From: Rhodocyclaceae bacterium | Lineage (GTDB): Bacteria > Pseudomonadota > Gammaproteobacteria > Burkholderiales > Rhodocyclaceae | Length of the DNA: 34,851 nucleotides | Assembly (NCBI GenBank): GCA_024709955.1 | Contig: JANJVS010000153.1 | Location: 1-34,851, forward strand | Reading direction: 5' to 3' | Shown: positions 4,742 to 34,040 of the stretch, piece by piece | How positions within the stretch are numbered: position 1 is the first letter of the stretch | Layout of the letters: the number at the start of each line of letters is the position of its first letter | Translations under genes and position numbers: made by a program | The notes under the pieces: generated by a model | Databases searched by the model: none | What the model was told of the DNA's origin: nothing | The model's input: the letters and a program-made list of their open reading frames with translations, nothing else

Positions 4742-6565
4742 TCAGGCCGCGGCTTCCGCCTCGTAGAAGCAGTAGCGGCTGCGCCCATCCTGCTTGGCCC
4801 GGTACATCGCGTGGTCGGCGAGACGCAGCAGCATGTCGGGCTCGGCGTCGTCGAAGGGATAGATGGCGACGCCGATGCTGGCGGAAATCCGCAGCGTGTG
4901 CGCGCCGACCGCATAGGGCGCGCCGAGGTCCGCGATGATGCGCTCCAGCGCCCGCTCGCACTCCTCCACCGTGCTCAGGTCCGAGAGCAGCAGGACGAAC
5001 TCGTCGCCGCCGAGCCGCGCCACCGTGTCGTCGGCGCGCACCGCCTGGCGCAGGCGCCCGGCCACCTGCACCAGCAGCTGGTCGCCGACACCGTGGCCAT
5101 GGCGGTCGTTGACCGGCTTGAAGCCGTCGAGGTCGAGGAAGCAAACCGCCAGCAACTGCTCCTGGCGCCGGGCGTGGGCGATCGCCTGGCGCAGGCGGTC
5201 GGCCAGCAGCATGCGGTTGGGCAGGCCGGTCAGGGTGTCGTAGTTGGCGAGCTTCTCCAGGTACTGCTGGGTGCTCTTCAGGTCGGAAATGTCGGCATAG
5301 ACCGCCACATAATGGGTGGTCCGGCCGATGCCGTTCTTCACCGCGCTGATGTTGAGGATGCCCGGGTAGAGCTCGCCGGACTTCTTGTAGTTCCAGATCT
5401 CGCCGCGCCATTCGCCGGTATGTTCGATGCTGCGCCACATCGCGTCGTAGAAGGCGGTGTCGTGGTTGCCGGACTTGAGCATCGCCGGCGTCTGGCCGCG
5501 CAGGTCGTCGAGGGTGTAGCCGGTGAGCCGGGTGAAGGCGCGGTTCAGGTTGATGATGCGCCGCTCGGCGTCGGTGATCAGGATGCCCTCCTGGGTGTGC
5601 TCGAACACGCTGGCGCCGAGCAGCAGGGCCTCGGCCGCCTCCTCCTGCTTGCGCAACGCGCACAACAGGCAGCGCATCATCCAGAAGCCGGCCAGCAGGA
5701 CGAGGCCGATCACCAGCAGGCTCAGCCATGCGCTGGCGCGCCAGCGCGCGAGGATTGCGTCCTTGGCCTGATGCGAGTTCATCACCACCGGATAGGCCCG
5801 CAGCGCCGCGTAGCTGAAGACGCGCACCCGGCTGTCGAGCACCGCCGGCGCCTCGTAGGTGCCGCGCTCGGCCCGCGGCAGCAGCTCGGTGAACAGCGGC
5901 AGCCCGGACAACTGGCGGCCGACCGCCTCCTCTACGTGCGGCTCGCGGAACAGCAGCGTGCCGTCGCGGCGGAACACGGTGACGGCGCTGTCCTTGAGGT
6001 GCAGCACGCCGCGATAGAGCTCCTGGAAATACCGCGGCTGCAGGCGCGCGAACACCACGCCGCGAAAGCCGCCTTGCTGGTCCGTGATCGCCCGGGAGAC
6101 CACGACGGTCCACTCCTTGTCGCGACGGCTGACGTTAGGCGGGCCGACGAACATGCCCATGGCCGGATCGGCCTTGACCTGCTGGAAATACTCCCGGTCG
6201 GCGACGTCGATAGGCGTGGCCGGGTACAGCGCGCTGTCGCCGACGATGATGCCGCGCGCATCGACGATGGCGATGGCGCGGATCTGTGGCAGCGCCGCGA
6301 CGTAGCCCCTGAGCGCGCCATGCACCTCGGCCGAATCCCAGCCCGGGTTGCGTTCGAGCATCTGGATGACGTCGGACAGGCCGAAATCCACCGCCTGCAG
6401 GGAGCGTTCGAGCTGCTCGGCGAGCGCGAGGTTGAGCGCGGTGAGGCGCTCGCGCGCCTCGGTGAGCGCCTGCTCGCGCTCGCGCCAGATGTTCGCGCCC
6501 GCCAGCAGGCCCACCAGCAGGCTGACGAGGACGCCGACGATGATCAGGAATCTGCTGGCTTTCAT
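4742..6565 (-). CDS. Cache-PAS-GGDEF diguanylate cyclase
   Basis: A 607-residue membrane signalling enzyme expected to make cyclic di-GMP. Membrane helices at about residues 5-25 and 270-290 flank a periplasmic double-Cache-type sensor (SDVIQMLERNP, IVDARGIIVGDS, VSRAITDQQGGFRGVV). A PAS domain (EGILITDAERRIINLNRAFTRLTG) and its C-terminal motif follow, then a GGDEF domain starting YDTLTGLPNR. The active-site motif GGDEF is intact at 519-523, and the product-inhibition site RxxD is present as RADD (510-513), five residues upstream, so the enzyme should be active and feedback-controlled. There is no EAL domain. The start ATG at 6565 follows AGAGGT; a longer frame to 6685 lacks a ribosome site and would put 40 unlikely residues before the first membrane helix. 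Confidence 0.9.
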   Translation of the reverse strand: MKASRFLIIVGVLVSLLVGLLAGANIWREREQALTEARERLTALNLALAEQLERSLQAVDFGLSDVIQMLERNPGWDSAEVHGALRGYVAALPQIRAIAIVDARGIIVGDSALYPATPIDVADREYFQQVKADPAMGMFVGPPNVSRRDKEWTVVVSRAITDQQGGFRGVVFARLQPRYFQELYRGVLHLKDSAVTVFRRDGTLLFREPHVEEAVGRQLSGLPLFTELLPRAERGTYEAPAVLDSRVRVFSYAALRAYPVVMNSHQAKDAILARWRASAWLSLLVIGLVLLAGFWMMRCLLCALRKQEEAAEALLLGASVFEHTQEGILITDAERRIINLNRAFTRLTGYTLDDLRGQTPAMLKSGNHDTAFYDAMWRSIEHTGEWRGEIWNYKKSGELYPGILNISAVKNGIGRTTHYVAVYADISDLKSTQQYLEKLANYDTLTGLPNRMLLADRLRQAIAHARRQEQLLAVCFLDLDGFKPVNDRHGHGVGDQLLVQVAGRLRQAVRADDTVARLGGDEFVLLLSDLSTVEECERALERIIADLGAPYAVGAHTLRISASIGVAIYPFDDAEPDMLLRLADHAMYRAKQDGRSRYCFYEAEAAA

Positions 6566-6696
6566 CGACCTCTGGAAAGGAACGCCGGTGGGCCGGGGCG
6601 ATGCCGCCGGCAACCCGAAAAACTGCCCGGCAGCATAGCAAATCCGCCCGGCGCACGGTCCCGCGCCGCAACATCGCCATGTCATGCATCCCGCTC

Positions 6697-6710
6697 TTGA
6701 GCGACATCAA
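6697..6710 (+). promoter_or_regulatory. FNR/Dnr-type box (TTGAG-N4-ATCAA)
   Basis: The sequence TTGAGCGACATCAA matches the FNR/Dnr consensus TTGAT-N4-ATCAA at 9 of 10 specified positions. Its centre is 40.5 bp upstream of the centre of the GCGAC dyad of the oprC promoter and about 83 bp upstream of the inferred transcription start. It lies in the divergent region between the diguanylate cyclase and oprC and could serve either. Confidence 0.5.
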
Positions 6711-6731
6711 GCGCGGCAGCGGAAAACCGGA

Positions 6732-6780
6732 CCGCTGCGACAACATGTCGCAGCGGCGCGCACGGCTATCTCCCTAGAAT
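6732..6780 (+). promoter_or_regulatory. oprC promoter: 25-bp palindrome plus -10 box
   Basis: Arms CCGCTGCGACA (6732-6742) and TGTCGCAGCGG (6746-6756) form a perfect 11-bp inverted repeat with a three-base spacer; the core is GCGAC-N5-GTCGC centred on 6744. A -10 box TAGAAT lies at 6775-6780, 33.5 bp from the dyad centre, and no -35 hexamer is visible 17 bp upstream. The inferred start at about 6786 puts the dyad at about -42, the position of class II CRP/FNR-family activators. The same geometry recurs at the second TonB receptor and at tonB. Confidence 0.75.
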
Positions 6781-6813
6781 TTCAGCTCTTACTAATATGT
6801 CTCGGGGAGTACC

Positions 6814-8811
6814 ATGTCTTTCACGCGCGCAACCCTGGCGGCGGCCATCGCCGCACTGCCCTTCGCCACCCATGCGGCCGACGAAGCCGACACCACCCTC
6901 GGCGCGGTGGTCGTCACCGCGCCGCAGATGCGCGATCCGCTGGTCGTCGTCAATGACCCGAAGGCGCCCCAGGTGCCGGTGCCCGCCAGCGACGGCGCCA
7001 GTTTCCTGAAGAACATCCCGGGCTTCAACGTCATCCGCAAGGCCGGCACCGACGGCGACCCCGTGCTGCGCGGCCTCGCCGGCTCGCGCCTCAACGTGCT
7101 GCTCGACGGCGCCGAGTTCCACGGCGGCTGCGGCGGCCGCATGGACCCGCCCACCGCCTACGTCTTCCCCGAGGCCTACGACCGCGTCGTCGTCGTCAAG
7201 GGGCCGCAGAGCGTGCGCTACGGCAACGGCAACCTCGCCGGCGTCGTCTCCTTCGAGCGCGACACCAAGCGCTTCGCCGCCCCCGGCGTGCGCGCCTTCG
7301 GCAGCCTGATGGCCGGTTCCTGGGGCCGCGCCGACGGCGTCGCCGACGTCACCTTCGGCACGCCGAACGTCTACCTGCGCGCCAACGGCACCCATTCGGA
7401 ATCCGACGACTACGAGGATGGTTCCGGCCGCAAGGTGCACTCCGCCTTCAAGCGCAACAGCCTCAACATCCAGGGCGGCTGGACCCCCGACGACAACACC
7501 CTGCTCGAAATCTCCGCCGCGCGCAGCGAGGCCGAGGCCGCCTACGCCGACCGCCCCATGGACGGCACCGTGTTCGACCGCGAGGGCTACGGCGTCAAGT
7601 TCGAGAAAAAGCGCATCAGCGAGCTGCTGCGCAAGATCGATGTGCAGGCGGACTACAACTACATCGATCACGTGATGGACAACTATTCGCTGCGCAGCAA
7701 GCCGATGGGCTCGGCGGCCATGCCCTACCGCTGGAACAACCCGGACCGCGAAACCCACGGCCTGCGCGCCAGCGTCGAGCTGGGCCTTTCCGCCGCCACC
7801 GTGCTGACCCTCGGCGCCGACCGCCAGGACAACACCCACACGCTGCGCGCCGGGTCGAGCGCGACCCGCGCCGCCATCCCCGCCCTCGGCTCCCTCGCGC
7901 GCGGCAAGGACCTCGAAGCCGTCACCACCGGCATTTACGGCGAGCTGACCCACGAGCTGGCCAAGGCCGACCGCCTGGTCGCCGGCCTGCGCCACGACCG
8001 CTACAGCGCCGACCGCTACGTCGCCACCAGTGGCGCGCGCAACGGCAGCGCCAGCGAGAACCTCGACGGCGGCTTCCTGCGCTGGGAACACGACTTCGCC
8101 AACCAGCCGGCCACCGCCTACATCGGCCTCGGCCACGCCCAGCGACCGATGGACCACTGGGAAGCCACCACCTACAACGGCCTCACCGCGACGAGCAAGC
8201 TCGATCCCGAGAAGAACACCCAGCTCGATCTCGGCCTGGTATGGAACGGCGGCGACATCACGGGCTCGCTCTCCGGCTACTACTCGAAGATCGACGACTA
8301 CGTGCTGACGCGCAACAACAACACCTCCAGCAACGTGGACGCCACGCGCTACGGCATGGAGGCCGACGTCGCCTGGCGCTTCGCCCGGCAATGGACGCTG
8401 CGCGGCGCCTACGCCTACGTGCATGCCGACAACGACACGATGGACAAGCCCCTCGCCCAGACTCCGCCGCAGGAACTGCGCCTCGGCCTCGACTGGCAGG
8501 GCGGCGCCTGGACCGCCGGCGCGCTGGCGCGCTTCGTCGACAGCCAGGACCGCGTGCATGTGGGCTACGGCAGCGTCGTCGGCCAGGACCTCGGCAAGAG
8601 CGACGGCTTCACCACCCTGGCCCTCTACGGCAATTACCGCATCAACAAGCGGGCCCAGCTCTCCGCCGGCATCGACAACGTCTTCGACCGCACCTACGCC
8701 GAACACATCAGCCGCGCCGGCAGCACCATCCTCGGCTACGACATCGCCACCACCCGCGTCAACGAGCCCGGCCGCTTCCTCTGGGCCAAGCTCAACCTGG
8801 CGCTCGACTGA
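6814..8811 (+). CDS. oprC: TonB-dependent copper receptor (OprC/NosA type)
   Basis: A 665-residue outer-membrane receptor with a signal peptide (about 1-21) and a TonB box-like AVVVTAP. The plug carries the family hallmark GGCGGRMDPPTAYVFPE; Cys106 and Met110 make the CxxxM pair, and His286-Val-Met288 makes an HxM pair, corresponding to the copper ligands described for Pseudomonas OprC. The C-terminal barrel ends with LKSDGF-like and FDRTYAEHIS segments typical of the copper-receptor family. Expected role: import of copper across the outer membrane, energised by TonB-ExbBD, for example for nitrous oxide reductase or heme-copper oxidase assembly. Start ATG follows GGGGAG. A strong terminator follows. 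Confidence 0.88.
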   Translation: MSFTRATLAAAIAALPFATHAADEADTTLGAVVVTAPQMRDPLVVVNDPKAPQVPVPASDGASFLKNIPGFNVIRKAGTDGDPVLRGLAGSRLNVLLDGAEFHGGCGGRMDPPTAYVFPEAYDRVVVVKGPQSVRYGNGNLAGVVSFERDTKRFAAPGVRAFGSLMAGSWGRADGVADVTFGTPNVYLRANGTHSESDDYEDGSGRKVHSAFKRNSLNIQGGWTPDDNTLLEISAARSEAEAAYADRPMDGTVFDREGYGVKFEKKRISELLRKIDVQADYNYIDHVMDNYSLRSKPMGSAAMPYRWNNPDRETHGLRASVELGLSAATVLTLGADRQDNTHTLRAGSSATRAAIPALGSLARGKDLEAVTTGIYGELTHELAKADRLVAGLRHDRYSADRYVATSGARNGSASENLDGGFLRWEHDFANQPATAYIGLGHAQRPMDHWEATTYNGLTATSKLDPEKNTQLDLGLVWNGGDITGSLSGYYSKIDDYVLTRNNNTSSNVDATRYGMEADVAWRFARQWTLRGAYAYVHADNDTMDKPLAQTPPQELRLGLDWQGGAWTAGALARFVDSQDRVHVGYGSVVGQDLGKSDGFTTLALYGNYRINKRAQLSAGIDNVFDRTYAEHISRAGSTILGYDIATTRVNEPGRFLWAKLNLALD

Positions 8812-8828
8812 GCTTCAGGCGGCAACAA

Positions 8829-8860
8829 CAAAACGCCGGCTTGCGCCGGCGTTTTTGTTT
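8829..8860 (+). terminator. Rho-independent terminator after oprC (bidirectional)
   Basis: A perfect 10-bp stem, AAACGCCGGC (8831-8840) with GCCGGCGTTT (8845-8854), closes a TTGC loop and is followed by T-rich sequence. A-rich sequence on the other side means it can also serve the converging minus-strand gene. Confidence 0.85.
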
Positions 8861-8866
8861 GCCTGG

Positions 8867-8890
8867 AAAGTCGGTGCCGGTGGGACGGTG
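8867..8890 (+). repeat. 24-bp dispersed repeat, copy 2
   Basis: 22 of 24 positions match the consensus (two C-to-T changes in the centre). It is intergenic, just after the oprC terminator and before the 3' end of the converging gene. Confidence 0.85.
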
Positions 8891-8917
8891 GGCGCGCCGT
8901 CCCTGCCCCCAACACGC

Positions 8918-9532
8918 TTACTGGCAGCCCGCCTGCGCGTACCAGTCCGCCGCGGCACCGGCGCCGTTCAGCTGGCCGCCGGCGAGGTAATAGACGTTGC
9001 CGTCCCGGCTGGACGTGCCGAGATAGACGTTGCCCGCGTATTGGCGGTAGTAATACTCCCCGGCGGTCTGCGACTGGGCGCCGATGGAACCGAACAGCGC
9101 CGGGTAATGGCTTTCCGCCCAGTCGAACAGGCAGTCGGACCTGGCGGCGGAGGCCGCGACCGAACCGGCCTGGTAGTTGTATTGCATGCCTTCCCCGGTG
9201 AGCGTCAGGGACGTGCCCTGGCGTATGTAGCCGATGGTCTGGGTGACGAGGTAATCCGGCGCGGAGGTCACGCCGTCGCAGGTCACCGCCGTCTCGCGCA
9301 TCTGGAAGCTCGTGCCGGTGTCGTTGCTCCACACGCCCGAGCCGCCGCTGCAGAACGGATTGCGCGGCGTGGTATTCACATAGGTGCCGTCGGCCCGGAA
9401 CTCGAAGCTGCCGTTCAGCGCCTGAATATCTTCGGGATCGTTCGACGATACGAACTGCCAGGTGCCGACGATATCGGCATGCGCCATGCTGGAAAAGACC
9501 AGGGCGGCGAGCAAGGACAAGCGTTTCTTCAT
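8918..9532 (-). CDS. Small secreted protein, lipocalin-like N-half and YYxxYxG-type C-domain
   Basis: A 204-residue exported protein with a signal peptide (MKKRLSLLAALVFSSMAHA). The first part (IVGTWQFVSS, FEFRADGTYV) resembles lipocalin-like or META-type small beta barrels. The last 70 residues (CLFDWAESHYPALF, YYYRQYAGNVYLGTS, NVYYLAGG, DWYAQAGC) match a short cysteine-bracketed domain seen at the C-terminus of many betaproteobacterial secreted proteins; its function is unknown. The Cys residues may form disulfides. The start ATG at 9532 follows AAGAAG and is the only start giving a signal peptide; a longer frame to 9634 does not. No link to the flanking metal genes is evident beyond position. 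Confidence 0.75.
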   Translation of the reverse strand: MKKRLSLLAALVFSSMAHADIVGTWQFVSSNDPEDIQALNGSFEFRADGTYVNTTPRNPFCSGGSGVWSNDTGTSFQMRETAVTCDGVTSAPDYLVTQTIGYIRQGTSLTLTGEGMQYNYQAGSVAASAARSDCLFDWAESHYPALFGSIGAQSQTAGEYYYRQYAGNVYLGTSSRDGNVYYLAGGQLNGAGAAADWYAQAGCQ

Positions 9533-9642
9533 GGGATTTTTCTTCTTGGCTGGATTGGAGTGACGGGATGCGCAAAATGCGCGCGCCACTCTACACCAGG
9601 GCTGCAGTGGCCCGGTGCGGATTAATGCCTGCATCCAGCCGG

Positions 9643-9666
9643 AAACTCGGCGCCGGCGGCACGGTG
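9643..9666 (+). repeat. 24-bp dispersed repeat, copy 3
   Basis: 22 of 24 positions match the consensus (AAACTC for AAAGTC, GGCACGG for GGGACGG). It lies 20 bp beyond the stop of the Sel1-repeat gene, which runs on the minus strand. Confidence 0.8.
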
Positions 9667-9685
9667 AGCGCCGCCGCGCCGTACT

Positions 9686-10297
9686 TCAGCGTGCCGCGCC
9701 TGCCGCCGAGGCGACGGCCATGTTCCTGGCCGGCAGCGCTTCGGCCACCTCCGCCGCGCGCCGCCTGAGTTCTGCCACGATGCGCTCGCCGTCGCGGTGC
9801 GCGGCGGCGAGGGCCTCGCGGCGGTCGCGCTCCTCGATCAGCGCGCGCGCCTGCCGCTGCCACTGCTGGAATTGCGCGTGGTGCTGGTGGTGCGCATGCT
9901 GCCGGCGGTTCAGGGTGAACCACTCGTGGGCCTTGGTTTCGTCGGCGGGCACGCCCTCGCCGTTCTGGTACATCAGGCCGAGCTGGATCTGGGCCGGCTT
10001 GTCGCCGCGCTCGGCGGCCGCGCGGTACCAGCGCAGCGCCTCCGCCGCGTCGTAGGCGACGCCGTCGGCATGCTGGTGGACCAGCGCGAGGTTGTAGGCG
10101 GCATCGACGTTGCCTTGCTCCGCCCACTTGCGCCAGAGCGCCATGGCGGCCGGCGTGTCGCCGCCCCGGTGCAGCTTGGCGGCACGGTTGAGATCGGCAT
10201 CGGCATTGGCGACGGGGCCGGCGGCATGCGCGGCGGCGGCGCAGGCCAGGCCGGCAATCAGCAAAGCGCTTGCGATGGTTTTGTTATTGGCGATCAT
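9686..10297 (-). CDS. Periplasmic Sel1-repeat protein with His-rich segment
   Basis: A 203-residue protein with a signal peptide (cleavage near AAAAHA at about 25). Two to three Sel1/TPR-like repeats are visible (AMALWRKWAEQGNVDAAYNLALVHQHADGV; EALRWYRAAAERGDKPAQIQLGLMYQNGEGV; KAHEWFTLN). They are followed by a histidine cluster RRQHAHHQHHAQFQQW at about 132-147 and a charged helical tail. Sel1 repeats are protein-interaction scaffolds; the His cluster suggests metal binding, which fits the neighbourhood, but that is inference. It has its own upstream region with GCGAC-type sites, so it may be a separate unit of the same regulon. The start ATG follows AAGGAGAG. Confidence 0.8.
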   Translation of the reverse strand: MIANNKTIASALLIAGLACAAAAHAAGPVANADADLNRAAKLHRGGDTPAAMALWRKWAEQGNVDAAYNLALVHQHADGVAYDAAEALRWYRAAAERGDKPAQIQLGLMYQNGEGVPADETKAHEWFTLNRRQHAHHQHHAQFQQWQRQARALIEERDRREALAAAHRDGERIVAELRRRAAEVAEALPARNMAVASAAGAAR

Positions 10298-10325
10298 CGT
10301 TCTCTCCTTGGGAATAGGCCTGCCG

Positions 10326-10385
10326 ATAGTAAGGAGATTGGCGCGCCGAATGAATTGGGCAAATTGTCGCGCGGCAGCTTGTCGC
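10326..10385 (-). promoter_or_regulatory. Sel1-gene promoter with two imperfect GCGAC dyads
   Basis: Read on the minus strand, GCGAC-N5-GCCGC (10385-10371, 9 of 10 dyad positions) is directly followed by a poorer copy GCGAC-N5-GCCCA (10370-10356). A -10-like TACTAT lies at 10331-10326, 34.5 bp from the centre of the poorer copy and 49.5 bp from the better one. The geometry is therefore less clean than at oprC, the second TonB receptor and tonB. Confidence 0.45.
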
Positions 10386-10398
10386 AGCCGGCGGACGC

Positions 10399-11133
10399 TC
10401 AGAGCAGCAGCAGCCGGCGCAGGCCCAGCAGGATCAGCACGGCGGCCGCGCCCCAGAGCAGCCAGCGCGCCAGCCAGGCGCGGCCGCTGCGCAGCTCGCG
10501 GCCGAGGCGGCCGGCGAGGGGCACGAGGACGAGGATCGGCGTCATCGCCGCGCCGAGGCCGAAGGCCAGGCCGTAGGCGGCGCCCTGCGCGGCGCTGCCG
10601 GCATGAGCGGCGAGGGCGAGCAGCGAGGCGAGCGGCGTGCAGGGCGTGAGCGAAAGCGCCGCGCCGAGGAACAGCGGCGGCAGGCTGTCCGTCTTGCGCC
10701 TGAACTGCACGGGCTGCAAAGTCGGCGCTGATGAAGCAACTGCGCTACAAGGCGGTCGAGCAAACAACGCTCTCCTCGCCGTAGCGGACGGCGGGACGGT
10801 GGCGCAGGACCTCGCCGGCCGCAGCAGCAGCCACAAGCCGGCGAGGATGCTCGCGCCGCCGATCACCGCGTTGCCCCAGGGGCCACCGAGCGCCTTGGCG
10901 AGACCCAGCCCCGCCGCGCCGGCGAGGGCGGCGAGCAGGGTGTAGGTGACGACGCGCCCGGCGAGGAACACGCCGGTGTGCAGGAAGGCCTCCGCCTGCC
11001 CGCTGGCGCGGCCGAGCGCCCAGGTGCCCATGAACGGCAGGCAGGTGACGGTGCAGGCGGTCAGGCCCATCGACACGCCGAGCAGCCAGACGGTCGCCAG
11101 CGTCACCTGGCCGGCGGCGAGCTCCTCAAGCAT
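10399..11133 (-). CDS. CcdA/DsbD- or TauE/UreH-like membrane protein carrying a repeat insertion
   Basis: A 244-residue polytopic membrane protein with about six helices. Each half carries a conserved Cys-Pro region: TACTVTCLPFMGTWALGR in the first helix and SLTPCTPLASLLALAAH in the fourth. That pattern occurs in the sulfite exporter TauE/SafE-UreH-2 group and in CcdA/DsbD transmembrane electron carriers. Function could be metal or thiol-redox transport across the inner membrane. Between the two halves, residues about 112-139 are encoded by an 84-bp copy of the dispersed repeat; they are low-complexity (TVPPSATARRALFARPPCSA) and unlike the rest. Without them the protein would be 216 residues, closer to family size. 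The frame remains open. The start overlaps the upstream polyferredoxin gene by eight bases. Confidence 0.7.
   Translation of the reverse strand: MLEELAAGQVTLATVWLLGVSMGLTACTVTCLPFMGTWALGRASGQAEAFLHTGVFLAGRVVTYTLLAALAGAAGLGLAKALGGPWGNAVIGGASILAGLWLLLRPARSCATVPPSATARRALFARPPCSAVASSAPTLQPVQFRRKTDSLPPLFLGAALSLTPCTPLASLLALAAHAGSAAQGAAYGLAFGLGAAMTPILVLVPLAGRLGRELRSGRAWLARWLLWGAAAVLILLGLRRLLLL
10718..10801 (+). repeat. 84-bp long form of the dispersed repeat, copy 4, inside a gene
   Basis: The outer 11 bp (10718-10728, AAAGTCGGCGC) and 13 bp (10789-10801, CGGCGGGACGGTG) are the two halves of the 24-bp repeat. Exactly 60 bp are inserted between them (10729-10788). The insert can fold into an imperfect hairpin: CGCTAC (10743-10748) with GTAGCG (10781-10786), GGCG (10751-10754) with CGCC (10777-10780), and GAGC (10758-10761) with GCTC (10769-10772). 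It lies within the CcdA/TauE-like frame, adding 28 codons without a stop. Confidence 0.85.
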
Positions 11134-12175
11134 CGGCGGGGTTCCGGACGAACTTCACGGGCTTGACCGTGCCGTCGGGCAGTTCGCCCTTGACCTTGGC
11201 CTTGTAGTAGTCGCGGCGGGACGAGAACAGCGCGAACGGTCCCCACTTGAGCTGGATGACGTCGTCCTGCGGGCAGTATTCGGCGCAGCGGCCGCAGAGC
11301 GTGCAGTCCTCGTGGTAGGCCTTGCGCCCTTCTTCCCTGGCGATCTCGGGAATGTCCATCGGACAGGCCTCGCTGCAGATGCCGCACTTGCCGCAGTTGT
11401 CGTGCATTTTCTTGGCGAGACGCATGGGCGAGAGGCGCTGGAAGACGGCGTTGAAGGCGAGCAGCGGGCAGATGCGGCAGAAAGGCTGGCGGATCGCCAG
11501 CGCGCCGACGAGCGTGAAGCCGATCAGCAGGTTGGCGACGGCGCCGAGGCCGAAGCCGATTCCGTCATTGACGCGCAGCGCGAGCTGCTCGGTGCTGCCG
11601 GTGAGCAGCGTGGTCGCCACGCGCGAGGGGCAGATGTCGCAATACGGATTGCCGAGGGAATGGGGCGTGACGCCGAGGCCGGTGAGCAGCGGCAGCACGA
11701 AGACCAGCGCGAGCAGCAGCAGCCACTTCACCGGCCGCACGCGCCTCACGTCGCCGAGGTCGCCGGCCTCCGCGCGGCGCAGGCCGATGCCGAAGCGGCG
11801 GCCGAGCTTGCCGATCAGCTCCTGCAGCGTGCCGAGCGGGCAGACCCAGCCGCAGAAGGCCTTGCCGAGCACGAAGAAGAAGGCGAAGAAGGCGACGAAG
11901 CTCATCAGGAGCGGCAGCACCATGCCGAAGGTGAGCTGCTGCGCGCGCACCAGCGCCTCGCCGATGCGGTGGTGGATGATGTGCTGCGTCGGGATCAGCA
12001 CGCAATAGCCGCCGTTCATCTGGTCGTAGGCGCAGGAGAGCGCCGGCAGGTTGTTGGAGATCTTGTCGGCCATGTAGGTGCCGACGAAGACGCTGCCGTA
12101 GACGCTGACGAACAGCATGACGAGCTGCACGGCGAGGCGAAAGCGCGACAGCGTCGGGAAGAATGTCTTAAGCAT
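11126..12175 (-). CDS. NapH/NosR-like membrane polyferredoxin (4Fe-4S)
   Basis: A 349-residue inner-membrane iron-sulfur protein. About five hydrophobic helices carry the NapH/NosR/CcoG-type motifs CGWVCP (Cys108, Cys112), CDICP (Cys179, Cys182) and CRICP (Cys233, Cys236). Two classical 4Fe-4S ferredoxin motifs follow: Cys261-264-267-271 and Cys291-294-297-301, each ending in CP. Such proteins move electrons between quinols and periplasmic or membrane partners, as NapH does for nitrate reductase and NosR for N2O reductase. Here the partners are a TonB receptor, a periplasmic protein and a CcdA/TauE-like protein, so a role in reducing an imported metal or cofactor is plausible but inferred. 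The start ATG at 12175 overlaps the previous stop by eight bases; a longer frame to 12388 is an overlap artefact. Confidence 0.85.
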   Translation of the reverse strand: MLKTFFPTLSRFRLAVQLVMLFVSVYGSVFVGTYMADKISNNLPALSCAYDQMNGGYCVLIPTQHIIHHRIGEALVRAQQLTFGMVLPLLMSFVAFFAFFFVLGKAFCGWVCPLGTLQELIGKLGRRFGIGLRRAEAGDLGDVRRVRPVKWLLLLALVFVLPLLTGLGVTPHSLGNPYCDICPSRVATTLLTGSTEQLALRVNDGIGFGLGAVANLLIGFTLVGALAIRQPFCRICPLLAFNAVFQRLSPMRLAKKMHDNCGKCGICSEACPMDIPEIAREEGRKAYHEDCTLCGRCAEYCPQDDVIQLKWGPFALFSSRRDYYKAKVKGELPDGTVKPVKFVRNPADA

Positions 12176-13058
12176 TGCCGTTGTCTCCTTGCGGGCGGGC
12201 GGCGCGCCGCCGCAGCAGCGGCGTGGCGGCGAGCATGCCGACCAGGCCGAAGGCCGCGCCCCAGCCGAGGCTGCGGTCGCGGTCGGCGTCCTGGCCGTAG
12301 GCATGGTTGAAGGCGGTGAGGTAGCGCCGGCCGGCAGCCTCCTTCTCGGTGGCGAGCACGAACCTGGCGCGGCGCGGACCGTGGCCATCGCCGCCGGCCT
12401 GGTCCGTCGCGGGCTTGAAGTCGCGCGGGAACAGCACGGTGGCGATGCCGTCCCGGTCGGTCAGGAAGGTGGAGCGGCTGCCGAACTCGGTCTCCAGGGT
12501 CAGCGGCTGGCCGGCCAGCGGCTGGCCCTCGAAGCGCACCAGGAAGCGCCACTTCTCGCTCTCGCGGTAGCTGCCGTGCTCGCGCGGCAGCGGAGCGGGC
12601 ACGATCTCCAGCTCGTGCTTCACGCTCCGCAGCAGTTCCTTGGGCGAGTCGCCGGGATTGCTGAAATACCAGGCGGTCGATGCCACCTTGACCGCCTCGG
12701 CGGATTCCTCGCGGGCGACGACCCAGTGGTAATTGCCGACCTGCGGGGCAGCGGGCGCGATCCGCGCGCCTTCCGGGGCGACCGGATAGTCGACCTTGCG
12801 GCGCTCCGCCGGACCGGCCGGGGCATGCACGCTCAGCACGGCCGGCGCGATGCCCTGTACCCGCAGCAGCGTCTGGGCGCGCTCGCCGCGCGGATTTTTG
12901 CCGGGCAGCAAGAGCGGCTGCCGCGTCCATTCGCGCGGCGCCGGCGGACGACGGACCTCGGCGGCGCTTGCCGGCGGCGTTCCATGGTTTTCATGCTGGC
13001 TCCAGGCGATCGCCGGCAGGCAGGCGGCGACCAGGGCCAGGACGGATGAGGGCTTCAT
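12168..13058 (-). CDS. Periplasmic protein with C-terminal membrane anchor (DUF4198/NikM-like)
   Basis: A 296-residue protein with a signal peptide (MKPSSVLALVAACLPAIAWS) followed by HENHG. The segment GQPLAGQPLTLETEFGSRST followed by FLTDRDGIATVLFPRDFKP is the beta-sandwich pattern of the DUF4198/NikM-type domains often found beside metal-uptake systems. The mature region ends in a single hydrophobic helix (GWGAAFGLVGMLAATPLL) and a short basic tail, giving an N-out anchored topology. Function is unknown; it sits 13 bp after the TonB receptor and overlaps the polyferredoxin gene, so it may hand the imported ligand to the inner-membrane components. The family assignment is tentative. Confidence 0.65.
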   Translation of the reverse strand: MKPSSVLALVAACLPAIAWSQHENHGTPPASAAEVRRPPAPREWTRQPLLLPGKNPRGERAQTLLRVQGIAPAVLSVHAPAGPAERRKVDYPVAPEGARIAPAAPQVGNYHWVVAREESAEAVKVASTAWYFSNPGDSPKELLRSVKHELEIVPAPLPREHGSYRESEKWRFLVRFEGQPLAGQPLTLETEFGSRSTFLTDRDGIATVLFPRDFKPATDQAGGDGHGPRRARFVLATEKEAAGRRYLTAFNHAYGQDADRDRSLGWGAAFGLVGMLAATPLLRRRAARPQGDNGNA

Positions 13059-13071
13059 GTCCGGTCCTCCC

Positions 13072-15330
13072 TCAGAAAGTCGCCGCCACGCCGGCGATCC
13101 AGTTTCTCGGCTTGCCGACGACGATCGAAAGATCCTCGCTGTTATAAACGCCGTCGTAAACGCCGGTCAGGTAATTCGACTGGTCGCTGGTGCCGCGCGC
13201 GGCCGACCAGTAGCGCTTGTCGAACAGGTTGTTCACCCGGGCGAACAGCGACCACTTGGCGCCCATGAAACCCGTTTCGCGAATGTCGTAGTTGGCCGAC
13301 AGGTTGAAGAGCGTGCGGCCGGCCCATTTCTCCTGGTTGATCTCGTCGGCCCACGACCAGGAGCGCGTGTCCATTTCCAGCGCCAGGCGGAAGCGGTCAT
13401 CCGGCTGCCAGCCGAAGGTCATGTTGAGCTGATGGCGCGGCACGCGCGGCACGTCGTTGCCGGTGTTGTCGTAGGCGACCAGCGTCGGCGCGGGGCCGTA
13501 GGGGCTGCCGAGCGTCAGGTTGAAGCGGTCGTAGTCGGTGAACTTCGCCTGGATGTAGGTGTAGGCGGCATCGAAGGTGAAGCTGCGCTTGCGGTCGGTC
13601 TTCAGGGACAGCTCGAAGCCCCGGTTGCGCACGCCGCCGATGTTGTCGTACATCTGCTGGGCAGTGGCGGTGCTGGTGCTGTACTGGCCGTTGGTGGCGA
13701 GGATGAAGTCCTTGCGGTCGATCTGGAACACGGCGCTCTCGACCTCGGCGGCCACGCCGGCGATCTCGGTCTGGGCGCGCAGGCCGAATTCGAGGTTGAG
13801 CGCCTCCTCCGGCTTCAGGTTCTCGTTGTTGAGCGTCTTGCCGCCGGTGGGCGAGAGGCTGCCGTTGTAGAGCTGGTCGGTGGTCGGCGCGCGGAAACTG
13901 GACGACAGGTTGCCGAAGAAATCGAGATTCTTCCGCGCGGCATAGTTCGCGCCGGCGCGCCAGGAATTGACGCGGAAGCTCTTGTCGCGCGTGAAGGGGG
14001 CGGCGATCTCGTTGGTCCGGCCGGAGGCGAAGTCCAGGCCGATGTCATCGTGGCGGCCGTTCAGCGTCAGGGTCCATTGCGGCGCGAGCAGGAACTTGAG
14101 TTCGCCATACAGGGCATTCACCGTCTCGTCCGTCACGTTGTCGCTGAGCACCGTGCCGGCGGTCACCAGTTGCGCGCCGCGGCCGCGACAGCCGGCCACG
14201 GCCATGGTGCAGTAGTCGACCTTGGCGGTGTTGAGGTTCTCGTAGCGGTTGCGGCGCAGGTCGAGGCCGCCGAGCCAGCCGACACTGCCCGCGTTGGCGC
14301 GCCACTCGGTCTTGACGCCGCGCTGCACCTGGCGATAGTTGTTGAGCGTGGTGTACAGGTCTTGCGCGCCCGGCGACGAATCGCTGATCGCCGCGCCGCT
14401 GGCGCTGACGCGCTGCGGGGCCGACCAGAAGTCGGTGCGGTCGCGATACTCGTAGGCGGTCGCCAGCAGGTTGCTGGTCGGCGTGATGTCGTTGGCGTAG
14501 GTGACGTGCAGCTTCTGCAGGTCGACGCCGTACTTGCGCGTGTAGTCGCGGCCGATCTCGCCGCGCGGGTCGAGATCCGCCTGGGTGGCGCCCTTGACCG
14601 AGCCGTGCTTGTCCTTCATGCGGTCCGACTTCTCGAAGCCGAAGGTGAGGTCGGAGGTTTCGGTCAGATAGAAGCGCAGGTTGCCGTCGATGTTCTCGGT
14701 CCGGTAGGAGGACTGCCAGTAATAGTCGTCTGCCGCGCGCCGGGTCGCCTGGAGGTGGCCGCTGCCCCAGTCACCGGCGAAACCGGCGCGCGCCAGCTGG
14801 CGGTTGTAACCCCAGGCGCCCTGGTCGGCCGCCACCGTCACCCCCTTGTATTTCGCGCCGCGCTTGGTGGTGATGATCACCGCGCCGGTGAGCGCGTCGT
14901 CGCCGAACAGGTAGGAGGCGCCGCTCTTGATCACCTTGATCGACTCGATGTTGTCGAGGTCGATATTGACCTTGCCGGTGCGCTCGAACACCGGCACGCC
15001 GTCGATGACGATCGCCACGCCGGGCTTTTCGCCCATGTAGCGCTGGTTCTCGATGCCGCGCAGCTTGATCTTGATCTCGTCGCCGGAGGAGAGGTCGGCG
15101 GTGACGCCCGGAATCGAACGCAGGACCTCGATGATGTTCTCCGGCCGCTTCTCGTCCACGCTCTGGCCGCTGATCTCGTGGATGGTGGTCGGCTCGCCGC
15201 GCTTGCCGACGAAGCGGTCGTCGATGGTGGTCGAGGTGACGGTGACCTCGCCCAGTCTGGTGTCCTCGGCCTGCGCGACGCAGGGCAGCAGGGCGAGCGC
15301 CACGGCCAGCGGTTTGACTGCGAACTTCAT
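13072..15330 (-). CDS. TonB-dependent receptor
   Basis: A 752-residue outer-membrane receptor with a 21-residue signal peptide ending CVAQA and a TonB box EVTVTST. The plug carries ENIIEVLRSIPGVTADLS, IKLRGIENQRYMGEKPGVAI and VIDGVPVFERTG. A 22-stranded barrel follows, ending in an aromatic residue (VAATF), the signal for barrel assembly. Overall it resembles iron-siderophore or colicin-type receptors, but ligand cannot be told from sequence. It lacks the CxxxM motif of the OprC family. Its promoter carries two tandem GCGAC-N5-GTCGC dyads, and the genes after it encode a periplasmic protein, a polyferredoxin and a CcdA/TauE-like protein, so it is likely the entry point of that pathway. The start follows GGGAGGAAG. 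Confidence 0.88.
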   Translation of the reverse strand: MKFAVKPLAVALALLPCVAQAEDTRLGEVTVTSTTIDDRFVGKRGEPTTIHEISGQSVDEKRPENIIEVLRSIPGVTADLSSGDEIKIKLRGIENQRYMGEKPGVAIVIDGVPVFERTGKVNIDLDNIESIKVIKSGASYLFGDDALTGAVIITTKRGAKYKGVTVAADQGAWGYNRQLARAGFAGDWGSGHLQATRRAADDYYWQSSYRTENIDGNLRFYLTETSDLTFGFEKSDRMKDKHGSVKGATQADLDPRGEIGRDYTRKYGVDLQKLHVTYANDITPTSNLLATAYEYRDRTDFWSAPQRVSASGAAISDSSPGAQDLYTTLNNYRQVQRGVKTEWRANAGSVGWLGGLDLRRNRYENLNTAKVDYCTMAVAGCRGRGAQLVTAGTVLSDNVTDETVNALYGELKFLLAPQWTLTLNGRHDDIGLDFASGRTNEIAAPFTRDKSFRVNSWRAGANYAARKNLDFFGNLSSSFRAPTTDQLYNGSLSPTGGKTLNNENLKPEEALNLEFGLRAQTEIAGVAAEVESAVFQIDRKDFILATNGQYSTSTATAQQMYDNIGGVRNRGFELSLKTDRKRSFTFDAAYTYIQAKFTDYDRFNLTLGSPYGPAPTLVAYDNTGNDVPRVPRHQLNMTFGWQPDDRFRLALEMDTRSWSWADEINQEKWAGRTLFNLSANYDIRETGFMGAKWSLFARVNNLFDKRYWSAARGTSDQSNYLTGVYDGVYNSEDLSIVVGKPRNWIAGVAATF

Positions 15331-15359
15331 GACTTCCTCCCGGTTTTCAAAGTGGCGGG

Positions 15360-15420
15360 AGTCTAGGCATGGCTATGACCAAAGCACTGCGACACAGCGT
15401 CGCGCGCGACAATCCGTCGC
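15360..15420 (-). promoter_or_regulatory. Promoter of second TonB receptor: tandem GCGAC-N5-GTCGC dyads
   Basis: Two perfect dyads lie at 15389-15403 and 15406-15420 (centres 15396 and 15413, 17 bp apart). The -10 box TAGACT on the minus strand (15365-15360) is 33.5 bp from the centre of the nearer dyad, exactly as at oprC. The expected -35 position reads AGTGCT, which is not a -35, so the promoter should need an activator. Confidence 0.75.
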
Positions 15421-15448
15421 GGCGGAATTGCCCGCCGCGACCGCCGGA

Positions 15449-15472
15449 AAAGTCGGCGCCGGCGAGACGGTG
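15449..15472 (+). repeat. 24-bp dispersed repeat, copy 5
   Basis: 23 of 24 positions match the consensus (AGACGG for GGACGG). It lies 10 bp beyond the stop of the Dnr-like regulator gene. Confidence 0.88.
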
Positions 15473-15481
15473 AGCGGCCGG

Positions 15482-16168
15482 CTAGGAAATGAAAATTTCG
15501 AGCCGATCGAGGTCGCGCACGTCGATGCGGCCGCCCCGTACCTCGATCAGACCAGCTTCGCTGAAGTCGCGCAGGATCCGCGAGAGCGCCTCGGGCGTCA
15601 TGCCGAGGCGCGAGGCGACCGCCTGCTTCGGCGCCGGCAGATCGATGCTCGGGCGGTTGCCCGCGCGTGTTCCGCAACGCCCCACCAGATAGCCGGCGAC
15701 GCGCTGGATCGGATTCTGCACCGTGTAGGACTCGACGTCGCGCATCAGCGTCAGCACCCGGCACGAAAGCACGCGCATCATGCGCTCGACGAACGCCGCA
15801 TCGCGTTCGACGAGGTCGTCGATGGACTGGCGGTCCAGGAGCAGCAGCCGCGAGTCGGCGAGGGCGACGGCGGCGAAGGGATAGGGGCCGTCGAGGAACA
15901 GGGCGGCCTCGCCGAAGCTCTGGCCGGGCTCCAGCAGCTCGATGATCTTCTCGGCGCCATCCTCGGACTGGCAGGTTTCCTTGATCAGCCCGTCGACGAC
16001 GAGATGGAGGCCGGTCGGCAAGTCGCCCTTCTGGAAAACGATCTCGCCCTTGGCGCAGCGCCGCTCGCGGGCGCCGGCGGCGAGCCGCTCCCGTTCGGCG
16101 TACGGAAGGTCGCTGAAAATGGGGAACTGGGCGAGTAGGGTGGCGGTATGCGGCTCGGGATGCTTCAT
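15482..16168 (-). CDS. CRP/FNR-family regulator, Dnr-like
   Basis: A 228-residue transcription factor with an N-terminal cyclic-nucleotide-binding-fold sensor (FPIFSDLPYAERERLA, GEIVFQKGD, GLHLVVDGLIK, PGQSFGEAALFLDG), a long dimerisation helix and a C-terminal winged helix. The latter includes LPAPKQAVASRLGMTPEALSRILRDF; its E-x-x-S-R recognition pattern is that of FNR/Dnr. The N-terminal cysteine cluster of FNR is absent, so it is not an oxygen-sensing iron-sulfur FNR; Dnr of Pseudomonas, a nitric-oxide-responsive activator of denitrification, is the closest type I recognise. ATG 16168 overlaps the exbD stop (TGATG); a GTG three bases earlier is an alternative start. It is the best candidate to bind the GCGAC-N5-GTCGC sites nearby. 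Confidence 0.85.
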   Translation of the reverse strand: MKHPEPHTATLLAQFPIFSDLPYAERERLAAGARERRCAKGEIVFQKGDLPTGLHLVVDGLIKETCQSEDGAEKIIELLEPGQSFGEAALFLDGPYPFAAVALADSRLLLLDRQSIDDLVERDAAFVERMMRVLSCRVLTLMRDVESYTVQNPIQRVAGYLVGRCGTRAGNRPSIDLPAPKQAVASRLGMTPEALSRILRDFSEAGLIEVRGGRIDVRDLDRLEIFIS

Positions 16169-16590
16169 CACGGAGCCGATTGTGCCGTACCCTCCGTGAC
16201 GAATGCAATCCTCGTGATGCCATTGCGCTGCGCGGCTGCCATCACCTCGGCGACCTTCTCGTAGCGGCTGTCGCGGTCGGCGCGCAGGTGCAGCTCCGGG
16301 TTGCCGACGCGCGCGGCGGCGAAACGCGCGGCCAGCGCGTCGGCCGCCACCGGCTCGCCGTTCCAGTGCAGCGTTCCCGCCGCGTCGATGGCGAGCTGGA
16401 TGGTCTGCGGCTTGTCGTCGAGCTTGCTGCTGTCCACGCGCGGCAGGTCCACCGGCACCGCCTGCTGGAACAGCGGCGCGGTGATGATGAAAATGACCAG
16501 CAGCACCAGCATCACGTCCACCAGTGGCGTGGTGTTGATCTCCGCCATCGGCTGGGGGCCGTTGCCCTCGCTGAACGATCCGAACGCCAT
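16168..16590 (-). CDS. exbD: TonB-system proton channel subunit ExbD
   Basis: A 140-residue protein with a short cytoplasmic N-terminus, one membrane helix (LVDVMLVLLVIFIITAPLF) and a periplasmic domain (AIDAAGTLHWNGEPV, LHLRADRDSRYEKVAEVMAAAQ). The proton-path aspartate of ExbD is present at residue 25 (NTTPLVDVM). With ExbB it uses the proton gradient to energise TonB. The gene starts 10 bp after exbB and its stop overlaps the regulator start by one base. Confidence 0.93.
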   Translation of the reverse strand: MAFGSFSEGNGPQPMAEINTTPLVDVMLVLLVIFIITAPLFQQAVPVDLPRVDSSKLDDKPQTIQLAIDAAGTLHWNGEPVAADALAARFAAARVGNPELHLRADRDSRYEKVAEVMAAAQRNGITRIAFVTEGTAQSAP

Positions 16591-16600
16591 CGCCGGCTCC

Positions 16601-17320
16601 TTACGCGCGGCGCGCCGCGCCGACCAGCTGCAGGCCGCCGACGGCGCGCGTGCCGGTGGTCAGGTAGGCGTGCAGGTCGTGGGCGAAGCCGTCGAGCAGC
16701 GCCAGCGTGATGCGGTTGGCGCGCGTGAAGGCGTTGTAGGCGAGCACGGCCGGGATGGCGACGAACAGGCCGGCGGCGGTCATGATCAGCGCCTCGCCGA
16801 CCGGGCCGGCCACCTTGTCGAGCACCACGGTGGTCGCGCCCGACAGGCCGACCAGGGCATGATAGATGCCCCAGACGGTGCCGAACAGGCCGATGAAGGG
16901 CGCCGTCGAGCCGACCGAGGCGAGGAAGGTCAGTCCCGATTCGATGCCGGTCTGCGACTTGACGATCTGGCTGCGCAGCGCGCGCGTCACCGCCTCGCTG
17001 ACATTCACGCCGGCGCCGATGCCGCGGCTGGCGTTCTGCTCGTGGGCCTGGACGGCGAGCGCCCCGGCGTAGGCGAGATGGGTGTAGATGCCGGCCTTGT
17101 CCTCGGCCTTGAGGGCCTCGATCGCCTCGGGCAGCGAACCGGCCTGCCAGAAGGCCGCCATCGCCCGGTCGTGGCTGCGTCCCGCCTGCCACTGGCCGAG
17201 GGTCTTGCGCACGATGACCATCCAGGAAGCGACCGAGAGCAGCAGCAGCAGGATCGAGACGGCGTGGGTGATGAGGTCTCCCTGCGACCAGAAGTGGGCA
17301 AGACCGAGTTGGGATTGCAT
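16601..17320 (-). CDS. exbB: TonB-system proton channel subunit ExbB
   Basis: A 239-residue MotA/TolQ/ExbB-family protein. The first helix is at about 16-38 (ITHAVSILLLLLSVASWMVIV), followed by a cytoplasmic helical domain and two further helices containing the family core FLASVGSTAPFIGLFGTVWGIYHAL and AGLFVAIPAVLAYNAF. Surrounded by tonB (9 bp upstream) and exbD, it belongs to the TonB rather than the Tol system. It forms the pentameric core around which ExbD and TonB assemble. Confidence 0.93.
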   Translation of the reverse strand: MQSQLGLAHFWSQGDLITHAVSILLLLLSVASWMVIVRKTLGQWQAGRSHDRAMAAFWQAGSLPEAIEALKAEDKAGIYTHLAYAGALAVQAHEQNASRGIGAGVNVSEAVTRALRSQIVKSQTGIESGLTFLASVGSTAPFIGLFGTVWGIYHALVGLSGATTVVLDKVAGPVGEALIMTAAGLFVAIPAVLAYNAFTRANRITLALLDGFAHDLHAYLTTGTRAVGGLQLVGAARRA

Positions 17321-17329
17321 GAACTGCTC

Positions 17330-18037
17330 CTAGGATTCCAGTTTGAAGGCGATGGGCACGGCGACCCAGGATTCGATGGCATCGGCGCCCTGGCGCGCGG
17401 GCACGAAGCGCCAGCGCCGCACGGCCTCCTGCGCGGCCTCGTCGAGACGGGGGTAGCCGCTCGACGTGCGCAGCTCGACGGCGAGGGCCGCCCCCTCGGT
17501 GCTGACGCGCACGCGCAGCAGGACCGTGCCCTCCTCGGCGCGGCGCCGCGACACGGTCGGATAAACCGGCTTGGGGTTGTGCAGATAGTCGGCGTCGAAG
17601 CGCGCGGCCGTCACCGGGGCCGGCGCGGGCGGCGGAGCGGCGACGACCGGCGCGGGGGCGGGCAGTGCCGGCGGGGGCGGCGCCACGGCGAAACTGGCGA
17701 CGCTCGGAGCCTCGGGCGCCGCCGCGAGAACCGGCGGCGGGGGTTCGGGACGCTTCACCACCGGCCTGCGCTCGACAGGGGCCGGCTTCGCCTCCCGCGC
17801 GACCGGCGGCGCCTGCGGCGGCGGCGGCGGCAACTCGACAAGCCGGACATAAATCTGCTCCACCGCCTGACGGATCTCCGGCCGGGAGGCAAGTTCCACG
17901 CCGCCGGCGATCACGGCGACATGGGCGCCGAGCACGGCGAGGAAGCGCATGCCGCGCAGCGGCAGGGATTCGCCGGCGGTGCAGGGATCGGCCCAGGGCG
18001 GGGCCGCGAGCGTGGTATCGGATGGGATGGGGGACAT
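17330..18037 (-). CDS. tonB: Energy transducer TonB
   Basis: A 235-residue protein with a cytoplasmic N-terminus of about 30 residues, one membrane helix (MRFLAVLGAHVAVIAGG, with the helix histidine), a long proline-rich periplasmic spacer (LPPPPPQAPP, PEPPPPVLAAAPE, APPPPALPAPAP) and a C-terminal TonB domain (YPTVSRRRAEEGTVLLRVRV, GYPRLDEAAQEAVRRWRFVPAR). It should serve the two TonB receptors in the window. The start ATG at 18037 is chosen because the longer frame to 18175 would run over the promoter and its dyad. First gene of tonB-exbB-exbD-regulator. Confidence 0.9.
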   Translation of the reverse strand: MSPIPSDTTLAAPPWADPCTAGESLPLRGMRFLAVLGAHVAVIAGGVELASRPEIRQAVEQIYVRLVELPPPPPQAPPVAREAKPAPVERRPVVKRPEPPPPVLAAAPEAPSVASFAVAPPPPALPAPAPVVAAPPPAPAPVTAARFDADYLHNPKPVYPTVSRRRAEEGTVLLRVRVSTEGAALAVELRTSSGYPRLDEAAQEAVRRWRFVPARQGADAIESWVAVPIAFKLES

Positions 18038-18084
18038 GGTCTTTCGCCAGGCCGGCCCGCCGCGGCGCGGCCCGGATGCCCGCA

Positions 18085-18128
18085 ATCCTACCCATCCCCG
18101 GCCGGGATGCCCCGTGACAGATTGTCGC
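18085..18128 (-). promoter_or_regulatory. tonB operon promoter with GCGAC-type dyad
   Basis: Read on the minus strand, GCGAC-N5-GTCAC (18128-18114; 9 of 10 dyad positions) is centred on 18121. A -10 box TAGGAT lies at 18090-18085, again exactly 33.5 bp from the dyad centre. The -35 position reads GGGGCA, which is not a -35. Because the regulator gene is in this operon, the site suggests autoregulation. Confidence 0.7.
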
Positions 18129-18204
18129 AGCGGATACATGCTCCCCCAAGGCTTGCGTCCGGCGCAGAAAGCCATAGCAATTTAGTCGGGAACTTGCTAC
18201 ACTT

Positions 18205-28922: not shown

Positions 28923-28926
<4 letters not shown>
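27064..28926 (+). CDS. treZ: Malto-oligosyltrehalose trehalohydrolase (TreZ)
   Basis: A 620-residue GH13 enzyme that releases trehalose from maltooligosyltrehalose made by TreY. An N-terminal beta domain ([20 protein letters not shown]) precedes the barrel ([34 protein letters not shown]). Nucleophile Asp270 ([10 protein letters not shown]), acid/base Glu307 (LILENDKNQ) and the [17 protein letters not shown] motif are present. Ten residues after Glu307, codons 317-325 (ESRRWRDGA) coincide with a copy of the 24-bp dispersed repeat; the conserved [13 protein letters not shown] resumes immediately afterwards, so the element occupies a loop and the frame is intact. Overlaps at both ends are ATGA. 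Operon position is between treS and malQ-treY. Confidence 0.93.
28013..28036 (+). repeat. 24-bp dispersed repeat, copy 6, inside treZ
   Basis: 23 of 24 positions match the consensus (one C-to-T change at the centre). It is read in frame as part of codons 317-325 of treZ, between the acid/base motif and the AQWNDD motif. Confidence 0.9.

Positions 28927-34040
<5,114 letters not shown>

Follow-up and report, generated by a model that had tools for sequence, protein, structure and literature searches.

Which regulator acts on the repeated dyads that precede the copper-import genes in a 34,851-nt stretch of DNA from a Rhodocyclaceae bacterium (GCA_024709955.1, contig JANJVS010000153.1)? This stretch is referred to below as the window, and its own genome as G000. 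It carries oprC, which encodes a TonB-dependent copper receptor, the gene of a second TonB-dependent receptor (TBDR2), a tonB operon and the gene of a Sel1-repeat protein, each downstream of an inverted repeat of the form GCGAC-N5-GTCGC or of a degraded version of it. Comparison with relatives indicates, with a probability of about 80%, that the dyads are operators of RegA, a dimer of which, phosphorylated by RegB, would sit near position −43 and activate a copper-supply regulon in a class II-like manner. A sequence-only reading of the window had proposed such a regulon and had pointed to a Dnr-like regulator of the CRP/FNR family; as a whole it is partly supported. The promoter elements of the window are as follows.

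6697–6710, plus strand: FNR/DNR-like sequence TTGAGCGACATCAA, 1 mismatch, 40 bp upstream of the oprC dyad, weak alone
6736–6752, plus strand: dyad TGCGACA-N3-TGTCGCA of oprC, centre 6744 (about −43), 0 mismatches to the 17-mer
6775–6780, plus strand: −10-like TAGAAT of oprC, predicted start about 6787
10355–10371, minus strand: proximal degraded dyad of Sel1, 4 mismatches, centre 10363, with TACTAT (10326–10331) at 34.5 bp
10370–10386, minus strand: distal degraded dyad of Sel1, 2 mismatches
15360–15365, minus strand: −10-like TAGACT of TBDR2, predicted start about 15353
15388–15404, minus strand: proximal dyad of TBDR2, centre 15396
15405–15421, minus strand: distal dyad of TBDR2, 17 bp further upstream
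18085–18090, minus strand: −10-like TAGGAT of tonB, predicted start about 18078
18113–18129, minus strand: dyad of tonB, centre 18121, 2 mismatches to the 17-mer

The exact core GCGAC-N5-GTCGC occurs in the window at 6737–6751, 15389–15403 and 15406–15420, and with one mismatch at 18114–18128 (tonB), at 10371–10385 (Sel1) and at three other places without a promoter role. On re-measurement a distance of exactly 33.5 bp separates the oprC, TBDR2 and tonB dyad centres from TAGAAT, TAGACT and TAGGAT, respectively, as the sequence-only reading had stated, and the extra TBDR2 dyad and the two degraded Sel1 dyads that it described are present. It had placed the dyads near −42; with the −10 hexamer set at −12 to −7 the centre falls near −43, a geometry that recurs in promoters of relatives. 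The chance of finding TANNNT at 33.5 or 34.5 bp from a random centre is 0.0014 per strand. The claim that the three promoters have no −35 box agrees with our own judgement, made by eye only; TTGACC follows the dyad in the promoters of two relatives (L117 and L118). If up to three mismatches are allowed, the window holds more copies of the 17-mer than expected (8 matches, 2.53 expected, a count reached in none of 100 shuffles), and 3 of the 8 fall outside the named promoters. Taken by itself the window is thus only suggestive, and relatives had to supply the proof.

In relatives the exact 17-mer TGCGACA-N3-TGTCGCA occurs at 53 sites in 38 of 199 genomes of the family, compared with 6 sites for the reversed control (hand-summed), and 51 of the 52 sites outside G000 are intergenic. 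Genes of relatives were called with a simple codon-usage open reading frame (ORF) caller trained on the window genes, and genome and genus lists were typed by hand; intergenic and target calls are approximate because the caller misses or merges genes (RegB in L093 and L195). Fifty of the 52 sites yielded 62 promoters oriented toward an adjacent gene, with TANNNT at 33.5 bp in 19 and at 34.5 bp in 11 (background 0.35 per offset). When each genus and target type is counted once, 23 of 45 groups have TANNNT at one of these two distances. At the level of the order the exact site is present in 72 of 300 genomes, nine of them from the family, with about 119 sites by hand count (reversed control 20). 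Elsewhere in the order, outside the family, 27 of 30 sites are intergenic, and TANNNT lies at 33.5, 34.5 and 35.5 bp in 7, 3 and 3 of 30 promoters, respectively. Since the −10 distance recurs in promoters of both the family and the order, the geometry is right and general, and the sequence comparison indicates that the regulon is real. Neighbouring dyads with up to four mismatches within 60 bp of exact sites number 11, compared with 6 in the control, and 6 of the 11 lie at 15–17 bp; paired dyads also precede the TBDR2 genes of some relatives. Such pairing is suggestive only.

The proteins adjoining the relatives' 52 sites number 62. Families were assigned for representative target proteins only, and targets outside the family were judged by eye. 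The representatives comprise TonB receptors, NosL (the G000 member), NosZ, CtaA and a Tll0287-like protein, and PCuAC is encoded in target operons. Two of the seven receptors of family relatives run against NCBIfam, those of L101 and L111, pass the cut-off of the OprC-type model TIGR01778. A cluster of 60-residue membrane proteins without a Pfam match accounts for 11 of the 62 targets, and SCO1 is encoded in its operon in several genomes. Outside the family the targets include PCuAC-, YcnI- and PepSY-like proteins, TonB receptors and RegB itself.

In G000 intergenic sites precede a NosL-like gene (contig C224), the gene of the 60-residue protein with its permease operon (C21) and regB (C231), and a −10 element lies at 33.5 or 34.5 bp at oprC, TBDR2, tonB, Sel1, NosL and the 60-residue protein gene. 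This geometry was examined at named sites only, C77:5349 being left out. A search of G000 for nosZ with a NosZ of the same genus gave no match; the genome is 95% complete, and the empty result alone is no proof of absence. As a side observation, the gene of the 60-residue protein heads an operon in which a small protein, an LolC/FtsX-like permease and an ATPase follow (L102:3620–6501, L120:3533–6948 and, for G000 C21, L155:1558–3017).

RegA follows the dyad across genomes. A RegA match (E ≤ 1e-20) is present in all 38 genomes with the exact dyad (checked by eye) compared with 107 of 199 overall (p of about 1e-12, ignoring phylogeny), and by genus in 22 of 22 compared with 45 of 68 (p of about 1e-5, again ignoring phylogeny). 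RegB matches at E ≤ 1e-40, a threshold of our choosing, occur in 37 of the 38 dyad genomes and in 71 of the 161 others; the one dyad genome without such a match, G041, encodes two RegA proteins on the contig that carries the dyad. In G000 the threshold of E ≤ 1e-20 leaves one RegA match, and the RegBA pair is encoded at locus L129 (RegB 5468–6739, RegA 6739–7272), with the ActS/PrrB/RegB and ActR/PrrA/RegA families as best matches. At this locus (L129:2470–7272, G000 C231) regBA and a c-type cytochrome gene point away from each other, and a dyad lies in the stretch that separates them; the next gene appears by eye to encode another TonB receptor.

Gene neighbourhoods also connect the pair with the dyads. 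Genes for RegBA or RegA adjoin dyad-bearing TonB receptor genes in three genomes (G004, G008 and G078; loci L096, L098 and L103) and are divergent from a dyad-fronted TBDR2 gene in L194, L195, L247 and L254, the RegB ORF of L195 being uncalled. Of 23 loci, 14 have a dyad with up to two mismatches upstream of regB and none has the reversed control there; 12 of the 14 dyads lie 44–62 bp from the called start codon. This set was taken from 30 RegA loci, of which the 7 without a regB ORF were dropped; L177 has 41 bases upstream. Because the dyad precedes regB in many genomes, RegBA probably controls its own synthesis. Some genomes have two or three RegA-type genes, with extra copies near dyads in G029 (C14, L108), G041 (C19) and G008 (C14 and C102); these are perhaps dedicated local copies.

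The RegA-box consensus is GNGRCRTTNNGNCGC. The form of the dyad, an inverted GCG repeat, matches the type reported to be bound by RegA, and the RegA recognition helix, MHRRTLQR, is that of PrrA (1umq). In R. capsulatus the RegA sequence from chromatin immunoprecipitation (ChIP) at ccoN is GCGACCGTTCGTCGC (PMC5359404; this and the other papers cited are represented here by parts of their text). The RegB proteins contain the AHE[LM]GTPL box, and a conserved cysteine and the GGxxNP motif, in whose full form GGxxNP(F) the last residue is mostly L and not F, each occur in 29 of 29 rows, two of which (L098 and L178) are one gene; the cysteine is equated with Cys265 by position, without alignment to R. 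capsulatus RegB.

A number of observations weigh against this assignment. In the GC-rich window the core with at most one mismatch is no commoner than expected (8 occurrences, 9.15 expected). A genome scan for the dyad, of the kind that the sequence-only reading had suggested, shows no excess either, with 17 exact cores against 56 for the reversed control. Contexts were obtained for 12 of the 14 exact cores outside the window, and 10 of these are inside genes. The 17-mer with up to two mismatches likewise gives 24 sites in G000 against 36 for the control; 14 of them have contexts (7 intergenic, 7 in genes), a further one, C111:6736, is the oprC site of the window, and another, C231, is covered by L129. 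Spacings of TGCGAC-N{2,8}-GTCGCA taken together show no excess among the matches listed, the reversed control being usually higher by inspection. The 33.5-bp geometry is absent at the G000 regB, cytochrome c and C39 sites. Among receptor loci with at least 57% identity, 13 of 23 have a dyad with up to two mismatches and 10 do not, and only 2 of 46 more distant loci have one, leaving 44 without. This set holds 69 of 75 loci, the partial L214, L232, L264, L266, L267 and L268 having been dropped, and some of its loci are short contigs; it is not independent of the genome set because several loci look like the same genomes (e.g. L202 and G101). The exact 17-mer is missing from 69 of the 107 RegA-positive genomes, and an evident copper target is missing at some sites. 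Further objections come from the proteins themselves. The G000 RegA scores 175 bits against an NCBI curated cut-off of 250, and RegB 235 against 350, a cut-off passed in none of the 199 genomes; because the scores are below the equivalog cut-offs, the pair is labeled RegBA-like and not a certified equivalog. Cys156, found upstream of the helix-turn-helix (HTH) in group 1, is present in none of 37 aligned RegA rows (by eye). Finally, known RegA/PrrA sites are degenerate and variably spaced (PMC4263372), most of the sequences in the table of PMC5359404 are far from the GCGAC-N5-GTCGC palindrome, and the RegA footprints at ccoN span −80 to −49, not −43 (PMC9147068).

The core is not enriched in the window or the genome, nor is the loosened 17-mer (at most two mismatches) in the genome, which would fit chance matches in GC-rich DNA. 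However, the exact 17-mer recurs in relatives far beyond its control, almost always between genes and at a constant distance from a −10 element; chance is thus untenable, a rival already refuted by the comparative data and given almost no weight. The Dnr-like protein is a more specific candidate, as its gene sits in the tonB operon, the half-site TGCGA is similar to TGTGA, and a 50%-identical homologue is encoded beside the receptor in L197. However, the spacing of the dyad half-sites is one base longer than in CRP/FNR sites. In addition, the recognition helix of the Dnr-like protein has the residues PE..SRI common to DNR, whose published consensus is CTTGATnnnnATCAAG (PMC1274295), and an operator TTGAT-N4-ATCAA is therefore expected. 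The regulated promoters offer one such site with one mismatch, at oprC, and none with up to two mismatches at TBDR2 or tonB; the window as a whole has 6 matches with up to two mismatches, 2.45 being expected. Nor is the protein conserved with the sites: of 69 related receptor loci, 1 has a homologue nearby (tblastn, E ≤ 1e-8), yet dyads occur in many families of the order, and the best match in the other genomes of the 199-genome set, among the matches listed, is 48% identical. RegA accounts better for the operator, the co-occurrence and the neighbourhoods. The Dnr-like protein was rejected as the dyad regulator and is very improbable in that role; its gene, which closes the tonB operon, is more probably one of the targets of the regulon. 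The one-mismatch site 40 bp upstream of the oprC dyad leaves room for a possible second input by a CRP/FNR protein at oprC.

It is also conceivable, albeit unlikely, that the dyads bind another co-conserved regulator, such as a different Fis-type response regulator or a second RegA paralogue. The co-occurrence of RegA is correlative and confounded by phylogeny, and several RegA-type genes are present in some genomes, some of them near dyads (G029, G041 and G008). G000, however, has only the one RegA match, the dyad precedes regB in more than half of the loci, and its sequence is of the RegA-bound type.

RegA as the dyad-binding protein would place the system among RegB/RegA, PrrB/PrrA, RegS/RegR, ActS/ActR and RoxS/RoxR, which it resembles in the GCG inverted repeat, the helix MHRRTLQR and the RegB motifs. 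Unlike in those systems, the operators come close to perfect palindromes and keep a constant distance to the −10 element, and many recognizable targets are copper importers and copper chaperones. The control itself appears to be of a known kind; what seems new is a copper-supply regulon with unusually strict operators near −43. Copper acquisition in Pseudomonas is reportedly linked to CueR. In Bordetella, the CruR upstream ORF acts post-transcriptionally on copper acquisition genes (PMC12914433). Both concern the same class of genes, and the texts considered on either contain no link to RegBA. The passages of PMC5436846 considered contain no RoxR motif. Bradyrhizobium RegR controls nos, nor and copCAB (PMC4064962), with which a role of the RegA family in nitrous oxide (N2O) reduction and copper genes agrees, and a roxS mutant of B. 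thailandensis accumulates N2O, as told in PMC9104464. R. capsulatus RegA, of the same regulator family, binds copper via Cys156, and senC, a SCO copper chaperone gene, is cotranscribed in group 1 (PMC9147068). By analogy a direct copper input is possible, although the cysteine used there is absent here; the portion of that account considered names no copper-uptake target. The CRP/FNR gene in the tonB operon is a point of likeness to the DNR/NnrR regulons of denitrifiers, but their operator differs (CTTGATnnnnATCAAG); in Brucella nosA is under NnrR control (PMC1274295). Searches of the open-licence PMC literature yielded no description of the dyad or of a RegA-controlled copper-import regulon in Betaproteobacteria, which does not prove that none exists.

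Operators, geometry, targets, co-occurrence and regBA linkage are read from the sequences themselves, and together they suggest the following mechanism. The membrane kinase RegB would respond to the redox state of quinones and/or thiols, which is the most likely signal because GGxxNP and the cysteine are conserved in all rows. RegB would phosphorylate RegA, a response regulator with a Fis-type HTH, and the RegA dimer would bind GCGAC-N5-GTCGC near −43, adjoining the −10 element of promoters that mostly have no recognizable −35. Bound RegA would then help RNA polymerase to start transcription in a class II-like way; we infer the binding, activation rather than repression, and the signal. The output would be OprC, TBDR2 with its membrane redox genes, TonB-ExbBD and the Sel1 protein, and elsewhere in G000 the NosL-like protein and the small membrane protein that heads the permease operon, where SCO1 is found in several relatives. 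The corresponding genes of the window are listed below; the earlier proposal of a regulon that joins copper import to TonB energy supply is supported.

6814–8811, plus strand: oprC/nosA-type TonB-dependent copper receptor (TIGR01778, 627 bits, cut-off 472)
9686–10297, minus strand: Sel1-repeat protein (PF08238)
10399–13058, minus strand: 296-residue protein, NapH/NosR-like ferredoxin membrane protein and DsbD_2 protein, the rest of the TBDR2 gene set
13072–15330, minus strand: second TonB-dependent receptor, TBDR2
15482–16171, minus strand: Dnr-like CRP/FNR regulator, last gene of the tonB operon
16168–16590, minus strand: exbD (PF02472)
16601–17320, minus strand: exbB (PF01618)
17330–18037, minus strand: tonB (PF03544)

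The gene order of the TBDR2 set (10399–15330, minus strand) is kept in L100, L145, L146 and L147, and the set is possibly a membrane redox module for metal uptake. The window also contains a very large predicted protein of 1705 residues at 28923–34040 (plus strand).

Little is known of how bacteria switch on copper import, and the supply of copper matters for whether denitrifiers carry the reduction of N2O through to N2. With an operator this strict and a transcription start that can be predicted from it, the RegA regulon of a large environmental group could be read from sequence, something hardly feasible with the degenerate sites of Alphaproteobacteria. The operator also points to likely copper-handling parts, namely the TBDR2 gene set, the operon of the 60-residue membrane protein and the Sel1 protein. 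A broader proposal, which we put forward only tentatively, is that in Rhodocyclaceae and allied Betaproteobacteria RegB/RegA may be primarily a copper-supply switch, which would give Gram-negative denitrifiers an activator that acts on the transcription of copper-acquisition genes, coupling the redox state of quinones, and perhaps copper, to OprC/TBDR2 import with a dedicated TonB-ExbBD and to the chaperones that serve N2O reductase and haem-copper oxidases.

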